Position numbers and translations under genes: made by a program | The notes under the pieces: generated by a model | Seen by the model: the letters and a program-made list of their open reading frames with translations, nothing else | What the model was told of the DNA's origin: nothing | Databases searched by the model: none | IMG/VR virus record: IMGVR_UViG_3300037189_022476 | Coordinates: 1 to 24,196 of that record | Strand: one strand, 5' to 3' | DNA: 24,196 nt | From: a virus | Part shown: positions 1,503-10,767 of the stretch, in pieces | Position numbering within the stretch: position 1 is the first letter of the stretch | Layout: each line of letters begins with the position of its first letter

Positions 1503-1578
1503 TGGCTCCGTGGGCAAGGCTCGAACTTGCGACGCGCGGCTTAACAGGCCGCTGCTCTACCAACTGAGCTACCACGGA
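1503..1578 (-). tRNA. tRNA-Asn (anticodon GTT) with encoded CCA
   Basis: The reverse strand folds into a complete cloverleaf of 76 nt. The acceptor stem is TCCGTGG/CCACGGA, the D arm GCTC/GAGC with loop AGTTGGTA, the anticodon stem GCGGC/GCCGC with loop CTGTTAA, the variable loop has 5 nt, and the T arm is GCAAG/CTTGC with loop TTCGAGC. The discriminator base is G, usual for Asn, and CCA is encoded at 1503-1505. All stems pair perfectly, so it looks functional rather than a remnant. It lies 6 bases beyond the last gene of the leftward operon, in the same direction, and could be processed from that transcript. Confidence 0.96.
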
Positions 1579-2914: not shown

Positions 2915-3138
2915 GAGGCCCCTGTGGTTTCTTTTGCCGTTGCTTGGATTATGTCGGTTTCAGACTCTTGGCAAAGCTGCTGCGTGTCTTTTGTCTGCGC
3001 TTGAGGTCGAGCTGGCATCTTTAGGTCGGAAAGTGCCGCGTCATAGCCAGCGACGAAGGCGTCGTAGGAGGCAAAGCGCTCACCGGTAATGGAAAGCGCG
3101 CGAGAGAAGGAGAGGGCAAGCTCATGCTGTCGCATCAT
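2911..3138 (-). CDS. Hypothetical small protein with an AFxAGYxAA helix
   Basis: The protein has 75 residues. The N-terminal half holds the stretch YDAFVAGYDAALSDLK, which matches the helical segment AFxAGYxAA found in the proteins at 3135-3473 and 3703-4050, with a weaker version at 4037-4399. The C-terminal half is polar and probably disordered (QAQTKDTQQLCQESETD). There is no DUF551 domain, so it looks like the N-terminal module alone. It is coupled to both neighbours by short stop/start overlaps. Function unknown. Confidence 0.65.
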   Translation of the reverse strand: MMRQHELALSFSRALSITGERFASYDAFVAGYDAALSDLKMPARPQAQTKDTQQLCQESETDIIQATAKETTGAS

Positions 3139-3473
3139 GGCGCCCCCACAGGGTCATCTGGGAGAGGGAGCCAGTGCGTCACCTCATCTGGGTGCACACT
3201 TGCAAGAGGGCCAACCCACATCCACCCGTCGTGATCTTGAACGATCTGCGCCGCCCACCATAGGATCTCAGGGCCGTAGATCATCACCACCTGACTGGGC
3301 TCCGGCAGCGCCTCAGTCACTGAGATCCAGCGGGGCTGCGCCGCCTTGTAGCCTGCCATGAAGCTGTCCTCTGCCAGTGCAAGCTCACTGACCAAGTAAA
3401 CGAGCTGGGTGCCATTTCTTCTCTGAGTGCGCTGCTTCGCCCACGCCTCTGCCAGTGTCTCGGGGCTTTTCAT
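3135..3473 (-). CDS. DUF551 domain protein with N-terminal AGY module
   Basis: The 112-residue protein has two parts. Residues 1-47 carry SPETLAEAWAKQ and DSFMAGYKAAQ, the shared AGY helix. Residues 48-108 form a DUF551 domain that opens with WISVTEALPEP and closes with VTHWLPLPD. DUF551 is a small domain common in early or accessory regions of phages and has no assigned biochemical function. The start is fixed by a strong GGAGGAG site and an ATGA overlap with the preceding gene. It is one of three clear DUF551 genes in a row. Confidence 0.85.
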   Translation of the reverse strand: MKSPETLAEAWAKQRTQRRNGTQLVYLVSELALAEDSFMAGYKAAQPRWISVTEALPEPSQVVMIYGPEILWWAAQIVQDHDGWMWVGPLASVHPDEVTHWLPLPDDPVGAP

Positions 3474-3706
3474 TTCTCCTCCTTCGGCGGCTGGGGTAGG
3501 GGCATCCAGTGCGTGAACTCTTCAATCGGATCGCCGTTGTCAGTTTCAACAATCAAGGCTTCCTGAAGAGGACGCACGAAACGAACACATTTTTCTACTC
3601 TGGCGATTTCTATAAATCCATCTGCTCTAAGCAATAGAACCCGATTGCTGTAATCATTTTCTGGAATCTCCGGCAACCGATTTTTTACGCTGATCCATTC
3701 GCTCAT
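3470..3706 (-). CDS. DUF551 domain protein (minimal)
   Basis: The 78-residue protein is almost only a DUF551 domain. It begins EWISVKNRLPEIPEN and ends FTHWMPLPQPPKEEK. Unlike its neighbours it lacks the N-terminal AGY helix. It overlaps both neighbours by ATGA, so the three DUF551 proteins are probably made in similar amounts. The DNA here is more AT-rich than the replication genes further upstream in the operon. Function unknown. Confidence 0.85.
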   Translation of the reverse strand: MSEWISVKNRLPEIPENDYSNRVLLLRADGFIEIARVEKCVRFVRPLQEALIVETDNGDPIEEFTHWMPLPQPPKEEK

Positions 3707-4050
3707 AACTCTTTCTCCGGTGGCTTAGGTAGCGGCATCCAGTGGGTGACATCATCTTCTCGATAAATAAAACCGTCTTCAGATTCCCAAGTGTGTTTCC
3801 ATTCTTGATCGCCATTGTATCTTCGCCTGACTCCAATAATCTCGGCAGGATCATTAAGAACCTGCCCATATACCAAGACTGGAAGATCCTCCTCCGGCAG
3901 CCTATCCTTTACGCTAATCCACTGCGGCGCAGCAGCTTGGTAGCCAGCAAGAAAGGCTGTTTCTGCTTCAACTATAATGTCGCTTGTTCCACAACAAGAA
4001 GTTGTAATTGTGTCTGCATACTTTTCAGCTAACTCTTCAGGTGTTTTCAT
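3703..4050 (-). CDS. DUF551 domain protein with N-terminal AGY module
   Basis: The 115-residue protein has KTPEELAEKYAD and ETAFLAGYQAA at the N-terminus, then a DUF551 domain from WISVKDRLPEED to VTHWMPLPKPPEKEL. The start at 4050 is chosen because GGAGG lies 5 bases upstream; the open frame extends to 4083 without a comparable site. The N-terminal module is nearly the same as in the gene at 4037-4399, with which it overlaps by 14 bases. A CC pair (TTSCCG) sits between the two halves. Function unknown. Confidence 0.85.
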   Translation of the reverse strand: MKTPEELAEKYADTITTSCCGTSDIIVEAETAFLAGYQAAAPQWISVKDRLPEEDLPVLVYGQVLNDPAEIIGVRRRYNGDQEWKHTWESEDGFIYREDDVTHWMPLPKPPEKEL

Positions 4051-4399
4051 CTTTGCCTCCAAACAATCCAGCATAAGGCCCAAGTTTCCCTACCGTTTCA
4101 AACGAACGATCGCTTAAATCCCAACTTGTGCGCTGTTCATCAACTACAATAACAATAGAACGAATCCGATCGTTGGCCTTGCAAAGAGTTTTGATACGCT
4201 CTTTTAACTTTGCTACTTCGCCGGTTACTTCACGCAATTTGCGTTCGTTATAAGTGTCTTTTACGACATCTTGAAACTTGCGTTCATTTCCTGTCTTAAA
4301 GCCAGCAATATAAGCCAATCGACACGCTGCTTTCACAGAGTGTACGTCATTCATCTTGCAGCAATATTCTTCTGCCAACTCTTCAGGTGTCTTGTTCAT
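4037..4399 (-). CDS. Hypothetical protein sharing the TPEELAE/AGY module, with a coiled-coil tail
   Basis: The 120-residue protein starts NKTPEELAEEYCCKM and continues with LAYIAGFKTG, the same N-terminal module as the neighbouring DUF551 genes. The second half is different: a charged helical region (REVTGEVAKLKERIKTL) and then IVIVVDEQRTSWDL. The start at 4399 has GGAGG five bases ahead; two in-frame GTG codons lie just upstream. It looks like the shared N-terminal module joined to another C-terminus. Its DNA is AT-rich compared with the genes upstream. Function unknown. Confidence 0.75.
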   Translation of the reverse strand: MNKTPEELAEEYCCKMNDVHSVKAACRLAYIAGFKTGNERKFQDVVKDTYNERKLREVTGEVAKLKERIKTLCKANDRIRSIVIVVDEQRTSWDLSDRSFETVGKLGPYAGLFGGKDENT

Positions 4400-6540: not shown

Positions 6541-6564
6541 GATCTCCTCTCACGTGAGAAAAAT

Positions 6565-6599
6565 GCGGGGCCACGTCTAACGCCCGCCCCGCAGGGCGT
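6565..6599 (-). terminator. Terminator-like hairpin with overlapping alternative stem (pseudoknot-capable)
   Basis: Read leftward, two 6-bp stems interlock. Stem 1 is ACGCCC (6599-6594) with GGGCGT (6585-6580). Stem 2 is GCGGGG (6592-6587) with CCCCGC (6570-6565), followed by ATTTTTC. The 5' arm of stem 2 lies in the loop of stem 1, so they are either exclusive or form an H-type pseudoknot. Stem 2 with its T run resembles a factor-independent terminator behind sak4 and could lower expression of the downstream genes. Confidence 0.55.
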
Positions 6600-7636: not shown

Positions 7637-7874
7637 GACGCCAGCTGTCATCCCCGCGAGCAGATACGTGCTCGGCGAGGTTTGCCTCATATTCGGCCAC
7701 GAGGGCGTCGGCTTGTTGCTCAAGCAGATCGGCGCTTGAGTTGTATGCCTGAAACGCTCCCATGCTCATGGGGCTCTGGGTCGGGTTTTTTGTATCGATT
7801 GAGGTGCTTTCTTGACGCGCGCGGGTGCGCAAGTCTGCGGCTAGCTGCCGCAAGAGCAGAACGGTATCTTTCAT
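7629..7874 (-). CDS. Hypothetical helical protein, first gene of the leftward operon
   Basis: The 81-residue protein is mostly helical (MKDTVLLLRQLAADLRTRAR, then SSADLLEQQADALVAEYEAN) with a polar Ser/Thr/Pro middle. The start at 7874 has AAGGA 7 bases upstream; the frame is open further to 8018 but would include the regulatory gap. It has no recognised domain. As the promoter-proximal gene it is probably among the earliest made. Confidence 0.65.
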   Translation of the reverse strand: MKDTVLLLRQLAADLRTRARQESTSIDTKNPTQSPMSMGAFQAYNSSADLLEQQADALVAEYEANLAEHVSARGDDSWRPY

Positions 7875-8008
7875 ATTATTGTCCTTATTAAATGTTCCCA
7901 CGTCCGAAAGTTCATTAGGCTTGCAGACGCATTGCGATAAAAACCGTATGATTCTTATCACGCCCCGACCATAGCGTAGCGGCGGCAGTGACGAAAGATG
8001 GAAAATGC
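7875..8008. promoter_or_regulatory. Divergent intergenic control region
   Basis: The gap separates the leftward early operon from the rightward Cro-like gene, the usual place for an immunity switch. An inverted pair GATAA (about 7937-7941) / TTATC (about 7956-7960), 14 bases apart, could be part of an operator. I see near-consensus -10 hexamers (TATGAT rightward, for example) but no well-spaced -35, so no promoter is placed with confidence. Confidence 0.35.
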
Positions 8009-8260
8009 ATGGGGTCAAAAAAAAATACGAAGCTCAGTTTGCACGAAATAATTCGAGCGCATCTGGGCTGGGAGAATCACGAACTGGCGCAAGCTTTCGG
8101 AGAGCCACGGCAGTGGGCATACAAGCGGCGCAACCCTGATCAACTGGTCAGAATGGGCGAGGTGCTTAAGTTGTACGAGGTGTCGGGCATGACCCCTGAG
8201 GAGTTCATCAAAGCGCTTCGGCAGGCAGCGGCAGCGGCAACAAAGTTGCCCAAATTATAA
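8009..8260 (+). CDS. Small Cro/HTH-like DNA-binding protein
   Basis: The 83-residue protein is basic and helical: LSLHEIIRAHLGWENHELAQ, then AFGEPRQWAYKRRNPDQLVR and MTPEEFIKALRQA. The order (helix, ELAQAFGEPRQWAYKR turn-helix, two more helices) fits a compact Cro- or XRE-like fold. The strand switch next to it supports a regulatory role. The ATG at 8009 has a weak GGA ahead; a GTG at 7988 would add seven residues. It ends in a Leu/Lys-rich tail. Repressor or Cro function is inferred from size and position. Confidence 0.55.
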   Translation: MGSKKNTKLSLHEIIRAHLGWENHELAQAFGEPRQWAYKRRNPDQLVRMGEVLKLYEVSGMTPEEFIKALRQAAAAATKLPKL

Positions 8261-8287
8261 TTTTAGACTCGAAGCAATACCTGTCTT

Positions 8288-8343
8288 ACGGTACACTGAG
8301 CAGCGTCAGCTACCGTTTTCGGCGTAATGAGCCGGAGGGGTAG
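8288..8343 (+). promoter_or_regulatory. Overlapping hairpins, attenuator-like leader element
   Basis: Hairpin 1 pairs ACGGTA (8288-8293) with TACCGT (8311-8316), has an inner CTGA/TCAG stem, and is followed by TTTT. Hairpin 2 pairs CTACC (8310-8314) with GGTAG (8339-8343) and has an inner TTCGGC/GCCGGA stem. They share bases 8311-8314, so only one can form at a time. Hairpin 2 would also hide GGAGGGG, the ribosome-binding site of the short leader ORF. This is the geometry of a terminator/alternative-stem switch; regulation is inferred. Confidence 0.5.
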
Positions 8344-8350
8344 GGAAAAA

Positions 8351-8413
8351 ATGAAAGCCGTCCGTTGCTGGAAAATGGTTATAATGACCCCACGTCTCCC
8401 CGTTGGCAGTTAG
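8351..8413 (+). CDS. Putative 20-residue leader peptide
   Basis: An ATG at 8351 follows GGAGGGG and AGGG at usable distances and opens a 20-codon frame (MKAVRCWKMVIMT..., ending PVGS) that stops with TAG at 8411-8413. The stop runs into GGAGGAG. The frame spans the hairpin arms at 8357-8367 and 8394-8399, so ribosomes translating it would change which stems can form downstream. It is too short for homology; coding is supported by the ribosome-binding site and the arrangement only. Confidence 0.4.
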   Translation: MKAVRCWKMVIMTPRLPVGS

Positions 8414-8433
8414 GAGGAGACACAACGGACGGC
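8357..8433 (+). promoter_or_regulatory. Perfect 11-bp inverted repeat around a TATAAT box and nested hairpins
   Basis: GCCGTCCGTTG (8357-8367) and CAACGGACGGC (8423-8433) are exact reverse complements, 55 bases apart. Between them lie a perfect -10 box TATAAT (8380-8385) with no good -35, a small stem GTCTCC (8394-8399)/GGAGAC (8416-8421), and a second CCGTTG (8400-8405) that can also pair with CAACGG (8423-8428). The set offers three competing pairings and could act in RNA (leader switch) or DNA (paired operator). Confidence 0.55.
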
Positions 8434-8447
8434 CACTTTTATACGGT

Positions 8448-9767
8448 ATGAACTCCGAGATCGACCTGCCTCGACCCACGAAACCCGTCTTAAAACCCGC
8501 TGGGGTAATGACTCCCGCGTTGCCTTTCAGCAGTCAGAAGACACCGTACGAGCCCACCTTACCGGCAATTTCGGAAATTGTCGATACAAAATTATTTAGC
8601 GATATTAGATCCTTAGATAGCGTGTTTGAAAATGCGCAAATTCCGTGGATTGAACACTGTTATAAAGCCGCAAAGAACCTAAAATATCAGGAACTTGGGC
8701 GGGCGCATCGCTACTTTACTAGAACTAGAAGGCGATCATCGCTAGTCTTTAACCTTTCGGATTTACTAAAACTTCTTTACCTCACCAGAACTCGAAACGT
8801 TGCTCAAATTAGAACACGTTTGGCGCTCGCTGAAATAGCGCATCGGCGTGCCTGTGCGGGGCGCGTTGGGCGATGGTCAATGACCGAGTTCAGGGTGCTG
8901 GTTGGCTCGACTCGGATCACGGATTCGGAGGTGCTGCGGGTAGTGCAAAACCCTCGGGTTGAGGTGCCTGAAGGGGCGCTCGAGGCGATGGCTGCCAAGC
9001 TGGGGCGACACAACCTACAGGGGAAGGTCTGGGTCCCGCGGCGGCTGGTGCGCTACCTAGCGAAAAGGGGAAGCCGGCTTGAGATAGCGGTCATGCTGAC
9101 GATGATGGCCCGCCGGATGGTCAACCGGTTTCAGAGGGCGCGGGTATCGGCTCGGCTTGTGGCGGAGCTCTCCGATAGTAAGGAGGCGCACGTGACGGCT
9201 GCGATGCTAAAGCTCCAAGAGCGGAGGCTCCTCATGCGCAACCGGCAAGCTGAGCGGTGGAGTGTCAACCGGTACGGGTCCCTCTGGGAGTTCCCTGAGG
9301 ATCTCTCGATTACGGCTGGCGAGGAGGTGAGGCCCTTAAGAGCTCCACCGAGGCGGGTGGGGAGGTTTGAGAGGCGCCCCTTAAAGGCCCTGTTGTCGGC
9401 CATGCTCAGAGCTACCCTGATGCAAAAAGGGGGGGATCTTATAAACACAGACCCTAGCTTGCAGCTAGAGCCGCAGCTGCTTATGGGGAAACCCCCTGCG
9501 GGGCCTCCGGTGGTGGCATCGGAGGTGGGCAGGGAGCGCAAACGGCTGGCTTCTGCTGCTGCTGCCTTAAAACTTTTTAGGGGAGAGCAGGGGGACGCCT
9601 ACCGGAGTGCGTGGTCGAATGTTCACACGGCTGCGGGAGCGGCTGAGGTTTTTGAGTTACGTGGTTTTGTTGATTATCAGCGGCTAAGGGATGAGTTCCC
9701 GCCGCACATACCGGAACGGAGGTTTTATGGGAAAAATGTTGGGTGCGATTCCATTGCGATTGGGTGA
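8448..9767 (+). CDS. Putative replication initiator-like protein with winged-helix region
   Basis: The protein has about 439 residues. The first third is polar with two TRTR repeats (FTRTRRRSS, LTRTRNVA). The middle (about residues 205-290) looks like a winged helix: EIAVMLTMMARRMVNRF, SARLVAELSDSKEAHVTAAM and LKLQERRLLMRNRQ. The rest is basic and has no recognised domain. One large basic winged-helix gene after a Cro-like gene fits a replication initiator, but a transcription regulator is possible. The ATG at 8448 lacks a close ribosome-binding site; the strong GGAGGAG at 8413 is 28 bases away. The 5' part (8540-8830) is clearly more AT-rich than the rest. Confidence 0.5.
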   Translation: MNSEIDLPRPTKPVLKPAGVMTPALPFSSQKTPYEPTLPAISEIVDTKLFSDIRSLDSVFENAQIPWIEHCYKAAKNLKYQELGRAHRYFTRTRRRSSLVFNLSDLLKLLYLTRTRNVAQIRTRLALAEIAHRRACAGRVGRWSMTEFRVLVGSTRITDSEVLRVVQNPRVEVPEGALEAMAAKLGRHNLQGKVWVPRRLVRYLAKRGSRLEIAVMLTMMARRMVNRFQRARVSARLVAELSDSKEAHVTAAMLKLQERRLLMRNRQAERWSVNRYGSLWEFPEDLSITAGEEVRPLRAPPRRVGRFERRPLKALLSAMLRATLMQKGGDLINTDPSLQLEPQLLMGKPPAGPPVVASEVGRERKRLASAAAALKLFRGEQGDAYRSAWSNVHTAAGAAEVFELRGFVDYQRLRDEFPPHIPERRFYGKNVGCDSIAIG

Positions 9768-10107
9768 CAAAGGGAAGGTGTTTTACAGCTGGACGCTCCA
9801 TGAGTTGATGAGCGAGCAGCGGCAGCAGCAGCCTGAAAGGCGCCTTCTGTGGGCCATGCTGAAGCGCTGGCTGCTCGACTATAGCGGGGTCTGTATTCGC
9901 AACCTAAATGCGGAGACCTCCCTAGAGGCTCGTTTCTCTGCCGTTGAGTGGGCATGGTCAAAGGAGCACGGGCCGTTTAGCTACTTGTGGGTCTGTGACG
10001 TGCTCGACCTCGACGCTGAATGGGTGCGGAGCAATGCGGACAAAATCGCCAGTCGCGTTGAATGGCAAGGCCCCCTTCTTGGCAGGATCGGCAGCCTTGA
10101 AATTTGA
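9727..10107 (+). CDS. Conserved phage hypothetical protein (FSF/CDVL-type domain)
   Basis: The 126-residue protein contains RRLLWAMLKRWLLDYSG, then ARFSAVEWAWSKEHGPFSYL and WVCDVLDLDAEWVRS. The second half resembles a small domain, seen in phages and several bacteria, with the pattern W(I)xSxxxxxPFSFxxVCxxLxLDxxxxR. Its function is not established. GGAGG lies 4 bases before the ATG at 9727. It overlaps the end of the preceding gene by 41 bases in another frame, and its own end overlaps a gene on the opposite strand by 131 bases. Confidence 0.75.
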   Translation: MGKMLGAIPLRLGDKGKVFYSWTLHELMSEQRQQQPERRLLWAMLKRWLLDYSGVCIRNLNAETSLEARFSAVEWAWSKEHGPFSYLWVCDVLDLDAEWVRSNADKIASRVEWQGPLLGRIGSLEI

Positions 10108-10350: not shown

Positions 10351-10767
10351 TTAAAAGAGCCCCCGAGCGCAGATTTTTCTTATTGTCGCCTCTTTCCAGC
10401 GTGATTGCTGGGTTTTGGTAGGGACCCCGATGACGTCAAGGGCTTTGGCTATCTTCTGAAAGGCACTCCCCGTCGAGCGCCACAGCATGATGAGCTGGCG
10501 CACCCCAATATCGGGCTCGCACGGGTAGAGCTGCCCATCTTGGCACATGTAACCGAAGGGGACCCGCCCGCCGGTAAAACGACCCTCTTCCCGCTTCTGT
10601 TCGAGAGCCGCCTTGGTCAGTTCGCTTGTGTTCCAGCTCCCAGTTCGCCCGTGGGCAAGGGAGTGACAGGTATCGCACAAAGGGACGGTCTTTTTGCCGC
10701 CTAAAATACGGGGCACAACGTGGTGGCGGTTTTTTGCTGGCTTGCCACACTCAAAACAAGGCTTCAC
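10351..10767 (-). CDS. HNH endonuclease fused to a serine-recombinase-type DNA-binding segment
   Basis: The 138-residue protein has an HNH-type zinc/nuclease core at residues 1-40: CFEC (4-7), RHHVVPR (14-20, His15/16) and CDTCHSLAH (31-39). Residues 63-135 resemble the 'Recombinase' domain of large serine recombinases (GRVPFGYMC, then AFQKIAKALDVIGVPT and ATIRKICARG). No resolvase catalytic domain is present. The GTG start overlaps the RHH stop as GTGA, so the two are coupled. It could be a free-standing homing endonuclease or a packaging or repair nuclease. Confidence 0.8.
   Translation of the reverse strand: MKPCFECGKPAKNRHHVVPRILGGKKTVPLCDTCHSLAHGRTGSWNTSELTKAALEQKREEGRFTGGRVPFGYMCQDGQLYPCEPDIGVRQLIMLWRSTGSAFQKIAKALDVIGVPTKTQQSRWKEATIRKICARGLF

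Follow-up and report, generated by a model that had tools for sequence, protein, structure and literature searches.

A probable leftward terminator in the leader of a weakly O-like replication gene of a temperate phage

What is the function of a leader that can be folded into several competing RNA structures in front of a replication gene? This question is raised by positions 8261-8447 of the stretch of viral DNA analyzed here, a 24,196-base virus record that represents a virus fragment (hereafter the window). A sequence-only reading had found two overlapping hairpins, an inverted repeat with further pairings inside it, a 20-codon ORF and a TATAAT box in this leader, and had taken them together for a translation-coupled attenuator or an antitermination leader of no recognizable type. 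Comparison with relatives suggests a simpler answer: the conserved core is probably an intrinsic terminator of the leftward (minus) strand, placed before an O-like replication gene. The conserved hairpin is thus of a known kind, and the layered attenuator is not supported (Table 1).

The relatives, reached via the replication gene (rep) and a Sak4-like gene, are four contigs, L002, L004, L005 and L010. L002 is 99% identical to the window in DNA, and the replication proteins of L004 (54%) and of L005 and L010 (53-54% over these relatives) are compared with that of the window at the amino acid level. L005 and L010 agree in the leader and are counted as one lineage, and the comparison rests on three independent lineages. 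An XRE-like HTH gene, the leader and the O-like replication gene follow one another in this order in the window and its relatives. That a replication gene lies downstream, as had been proposed, is borne out by this shared neighborhood and by a weak match of rep to the lambda O N-terminal model (TIGR01610, E = 0.003); a Phage_rep_O match (E = 0.068) comes from one member of the rep alignment, and the predicted rep fold was set aside for its pLDDT of 40. Also as proposed, no Shine-Dalgarno sequence is present near the ATG at 8448, and none precedes rep in L004 and L005. A small palindrome that may be a protein-binding site includes or adjoins the rep start codon in all lineages (8440-8452 in the window and 3767-3784 in L004; ATACGGTAT and TCATAGCGTTAACTATGA). 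In L004 (3897-4346) and L005 (3868-4347), an inserted divergent signal-peptide-like gene of 149 to 159 residues, which the window lacks, separates the HTH gene from the rep leader; no family match was found for the L004 copy. The HTH gene of the same two contigs has its ATG directly after TAGACT-CTTTTTT (L004 4589-4610, L005 4590-4611), as in leaderless mRNA.

Searches beyond these contigs added no further case. No relatives of the rep-leader region were found in the phage and plasmid records searched, and no bacterial genomes with rep or p9691 were found. L036 and L039, which came from a pattern search with the shared flank, were rejected as chance matches in which the neighboring genes are missing, the window-specific flank pattern returned the known sister contig only, and L023, a match of the HTH search, has a different gene context and no comparable leader. 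At the gathering score, Rfam recognized only the tRNA of the window, the best local hit having an E-value of 0.55, below the cut-off. This tRNA-Asn (GTT) gene (1503-1578, minus strand) lies far from the integrase gene.

Table 1. Features of the rep leader and its surroundings in the window (+, rightward; -, leftward).
Feature	Positions	Strand	Remarks
Leftward terminator directly after the Sak4-like gene, positive control	6559-6593	-	same grammar; kept in three lineages
Small XRE/434-repressor-like HTH protein gene, Cro-like position	8009-8260	+	weak resemblance to XRE/434 repressor-type HTH proteins
Hairpin 1, then TTT	8288-8316	+	window and L002 only
Hairpin 2, excludes hairpin 1	8310-8343	+	window and L002 only
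Candidate leftward intrinsic terminator (stem-loop and T-tract), place of lambda tO	8345-8441	-	position and architecture kept in L002, L004, L005 and L010; fold z = -4.1
T-tract after the stem, TTTCATTTTTTC (plus strand GAAAAAATGAAA)	8345-8356	-	GAAAAAATG common to all lineages
20-codon ORF	8351-8413	+	not conserved: MKAVR and two stops in L002, MPR and stop in L005
3' arm of candidate terminator stem, CAACGGACGGC	8357-8367	-	exact 11-bp inverted repeat
Fast-changing loop part, holds TATAAT	8368-8387		almost wholly different in the 99% sister L002
Inner hairpin GTCTCC.../GGAGAC within the loop, holds GGAGGAG	8393-8421		window and L002 only
5' arm of candidate terminator stem, GCCGTCCGTTG	8423-8433	-	exact 11-bp inverted repeat
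Replication initiator-like gene (rep), weakly O-like, without Shine-Dalgarno	8448-9767	+	TIGR01610, E = 0.003
Candidate leftward promoter within the rep start, TTCAAA-17-TAATAT, weak	8602-8630	-	p = 0.06 vs shuffles

All the pairings that had been named can indeed be drawn. Hairpins 1 and 2 share bases 8310-8316 and are mutually exclusive, the 20-codon ORF is present, hairpin 2 carrying its ribosome-binding GGAGGGG in the 3' arm, a second GGAGGAG occurs at 8413-8419, and the exact inverted repeat encloses the ORF region together with two inner pairings that compete with each other. Hairpin 2 folds at -16.5 kcal/mol, well beyond dinucleotide shuffles (z = -4.0), and hairpin 1 at -10.2 kcal/mol, only slightly beyond them (z = -2.1, p = 0.03). 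Hairpin 1 was said to be followed by TTTT, and here the sequence reads TTT and then C, the fourth T (8316) being part of the stem. At best, hairpin 1 would act as a weak rightward pause or attenuator.

The relatives leave little of this architecture standing. The leader ORF, on which a ribosome was to switch between hairpins 1 and 2 and the outer stem, stops after five codons in the 99% sister L002 and after three in L005, and is replaced by 23 unrelated codons in L004, so that it is probably not a gene, judged by its lack of conservation. GGAGGAG is absent from L004 and L005, TATAAT, found at 8380-8385 as described, is gone in L002, L004 and L005, and hairpins 1 and 2, which carry only TTT as a U-tract where they exist, are missing from L004 and L005. 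The mutual exclusion of the two hairpins favors an attenuator, as does the fact that the four substitutions in L002 break none of their plus-strand pairs (chance about 0.03), which is at most a hint. Against the losses above, it nevertheless seems extremely improbable that a translation-coupled attenuator operates here. An antitermination leader fares no better: no boxA-like motif (YGCTCTTW, at most one mismatch) was found on either strand of 8261-8447, and the conserved hairpin faces away from rep. This region shows how numerous alternative pairings, a short ORF and a promoter box may arise unconstrained around one constrained element, and how the comparison with one near-identical relative eliminates most of them. 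L002 and the window diverge far more in the leader than in the neighboring genes. A second hot spot of change between them is at 7871-7895, in the leftward early promoter/start region, and they are rearranged with respect to each other at 3135-4083 (minus strand), where three tandem DUF551 genes share DNA repeats. A moron remnant in the window leader was also considered, and its alignment was not convincing.

Of the stems in the leader, conservation extends to the outer inverted repeat only. At the corresponding place, L004 and L005 have the arms TGCCGCGGTG...CACCGCGGCA, a perfect 10-bp repeat of different sequence, and in each lineage the stem begins directly after GAAAAAATG. The loop between the arms measures 24 and 25 nt in L004 and L005, 55 nt in the window and 58 nt in L002. 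When the window and L004/L005 are aligned without gaps from the GCCG that they share, both sides have changed in five of nine pairs, all of which still pair; MAFFT favors an alternative, gapped register with fewer double changes, and the number of double changes is thus a range that depends on the register, although the stem is always intact. L002 has the same stem as the window, but an adjoining loop that is almost completely replaced. The minus-strand stem folds at -22 to -35 kcal/mol across the window and its relatives, and the fold of 8351-8445 is more stable than dinucleotide shuffles on both strands (z = -4.6 on plus and -4.1 on minus). An 11-bp inverted repeat alone means little, because about 1.5 are expected by chance per window: over the whole window, two with loops of less than 100 nt were observed vs 1.55 in shuffles. 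Such a repeat has a probability of 0.002 of occurring by chance in the 187-base leader, and of about 0.0015-0.002 per leader across the lineages. By these comparisons, the hairpin in the rep leader is a real one, conserved as structure and not as sequence.

The direction of this hairpin is indicated by its flank. Read on the plus strand, the shared flank forms an A-tract; read on the minus strand, it is a T-tract that follows the stem, and in all lineages a T-tract is present on that strand only. The minus-strand sequence after the stem has six T directly in L004 and L005 (ATTTTTT) and an interrupted tract, TTTCATTTTTT, in the window. The plus-strand side of the stem is followed by CACTTTTATA in the window and CACTAAAGAT in the relatives, which are not T-rich there. 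Because the T-tract is on the minus strand, the conserved hairpin points away from the replication gene, although plus-strand RNA can form the same stem.

As a positive control, we used the terminator of the Sak4-like gene, since an intrinsic terminator is expected at that place. It stands right after the stop codon of this leftward gene in all three lineages and is built as TGCGGGGC, 14 nt and GCCCCGCA-TTTTT in the window and as TGCGGCGC... in L004 and L005; the TGC...GCA-T4-5 build is shared by the control in three lineages and the leader element. A scan of the 24-kb window with a strict grammar (exact arms of 8 or more, with 5 or more T close by) returned only these two elements, with 0.4 hits expected. 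A standard terminator scan with loops of 3-8 does not flag the leader element because its loop is longer than in ordinary terminators: at 24-58 nt it exceeds the usual 3-10 nt, a length that is typical and not strictly defining, and it is partly filled by inner hairpins. The leader element can thus be called terminator-like from its sequence. Like ordinary phage intrinsic terminators, among them that after the Sak4-like gene, it has a perfect GC-rich stem and ...GCA followed by T4-6, and its place is kept while the stem sequence has changed; unlike them, it has the long loop and is antisense to the gene that it precedes. The control itself is conserved and lies within the leftward early operon, where it separates the Sak4-like gene from the gene that follows, which suggests that the genes beyond it need antitermination, read-through or a promoter of their own.

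Termination itself, as well as the source and role of the leftward RNA, we infer as follows. RNA polymerase travelling leftward, antisense to rep, would transcribe the GC-rich stem (11 bp here and 10 bp in the relatives) and then the T-tract, where the RNA would be released before the polymerase enters the HTH/immunity region. The terminator would need none of the other features, namely the leader ORF, TATAAT, the inner hairpin and the two upstream hairpins, all of which are lineage-specific. The leftward RNA could derive from the int-HNH operon by read-through, or could be a short antisense RNA of the OOP type begun near the rep start; these two sources are alternatives within the terminator reading, and their probabilities overlap with its own and do not add to it.

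An insulator that protects the immunity region, and the divergent 149-aa gene of the relatives, from int-HNH read-through is a serious possibility, somewhat short of an even chance. The leftward genes from 12352 to 9977 lead into the right-hand end of rep, no nearer leftward terminator was found for this operon down to 8433 (no other between 10000 and 8300, relaxed rules included), and in L004 and L005 the terminator stands just upstream of a leftward gene, but it lies about 1.5 kb past the last leftward gene of the window. On the minus strand at 10351-10767, a short protein is encoded whose HNH-like N-terminal part is joined to a segment similar to the Recombinase domain of large serine recombinases; a catalytic domain is missing. 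A dedicated short antisense RNA, which would run leftward from the rep start like lambda OOP and pair with the rep leader, is rather doubtful. Its place and direction would match lambda pO-oop-tO (PMC5869508, PMC3985674), and promoter-like sequences are present at the rep start, that at 8630-8602 ranking third in the whole window by a simple sigma-70 matrix. No leftward promoter is convincingly kept, however: significance against shuffles is uneven (p = 0.035 in L005, 0.06 in the window and 0.30 in L004), and the sites are not at exactly corresponding positions in the lineages. In addition, such an RNA would stop short of the upstream HTH gene, whereas OOP overlaps cII, and no Rfam match was found.

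Two further explanations dispense with a leftward terminator. The stem could be a 5' UTR element of rep in the plus-strand mRNA, controlling translation or stability: it lies upstream of the rep ATG at a distance of 14 to about 40 nt, folds equally well on the plus strand, and is found where a Shine-Dalgarno sequence is missing in the window, L004 and L005. The conserved flank GAAAAAATG, however, fits a T-tract of the minus strand, GGAGGAG and the loops are not conserved across lineages, and the distance to the ATG varies, which makes this explanation unlikely. An element acting as DNA, such as part of a replication origin or a recombination site, would suit the adjoining O-like initiator gene and the fast-changing loop, but no repeat array (iterons or origin) was found in 8200-9770, which includes rep, the integrase gene is 3 kb away, and arms of differing sequence spaced 24 to 58 nt apart are unlike a protein-binding site; this is very unlikely.

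With the leftward terminator as the preferred reading, the closest known arrangement is that of lambda. In lambda, whose order is pR-cro-nutR-tR1-cII-O, OOP RNA is transcribed leftward from pO, which adjoins the start codon of O, as far as the tO hairpin, a leftward terminator placed just before the replication gene O (PMC5869508, PMC3985674). The nutR-tR1 segment between cro and cII has the same general place, from the Cro-like gene to the replication gene, and hairpin 1 with its TTT could be a weak rightward stop comparable to it, but the leader lacks a boxA-like motif and hairpins 1 and 2 are not kept beyond the sister. As at tO, a leftward terminator-like element just upstream of an O-type gene, though the O-type assignment is weak, occupies the short gap that leads up to the replication initiator gene, and a Cro-like HTH gene precedes this gap on the rightward early transcript. 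Differences from tO are that the loop here is much longer, that the leftward promoter and RNA are only candidates, that no cII-like gene lies in the gap and no sequence similarity is shown, and that some 85 nt separate the T-tract from the end of the HTH gene at 8260, leaving no antisense overlap as with cII. If the leftward terminator is real, it would mark the point at which the early transcripts of the two directions meet in a temperate phage group so far undescribed, and would be a testable parallel to lambda pO-oop-tO. An OOP-like module of antisense RNA and terminator before the O-like gene, with the stem rewritten between lineages and the loop fast-changing, is a bolder proposal that we regard as improbable at present; were it true, pO-oop-tO would be a recurrent solution for early replication control and not a lambdoid peculiarity.
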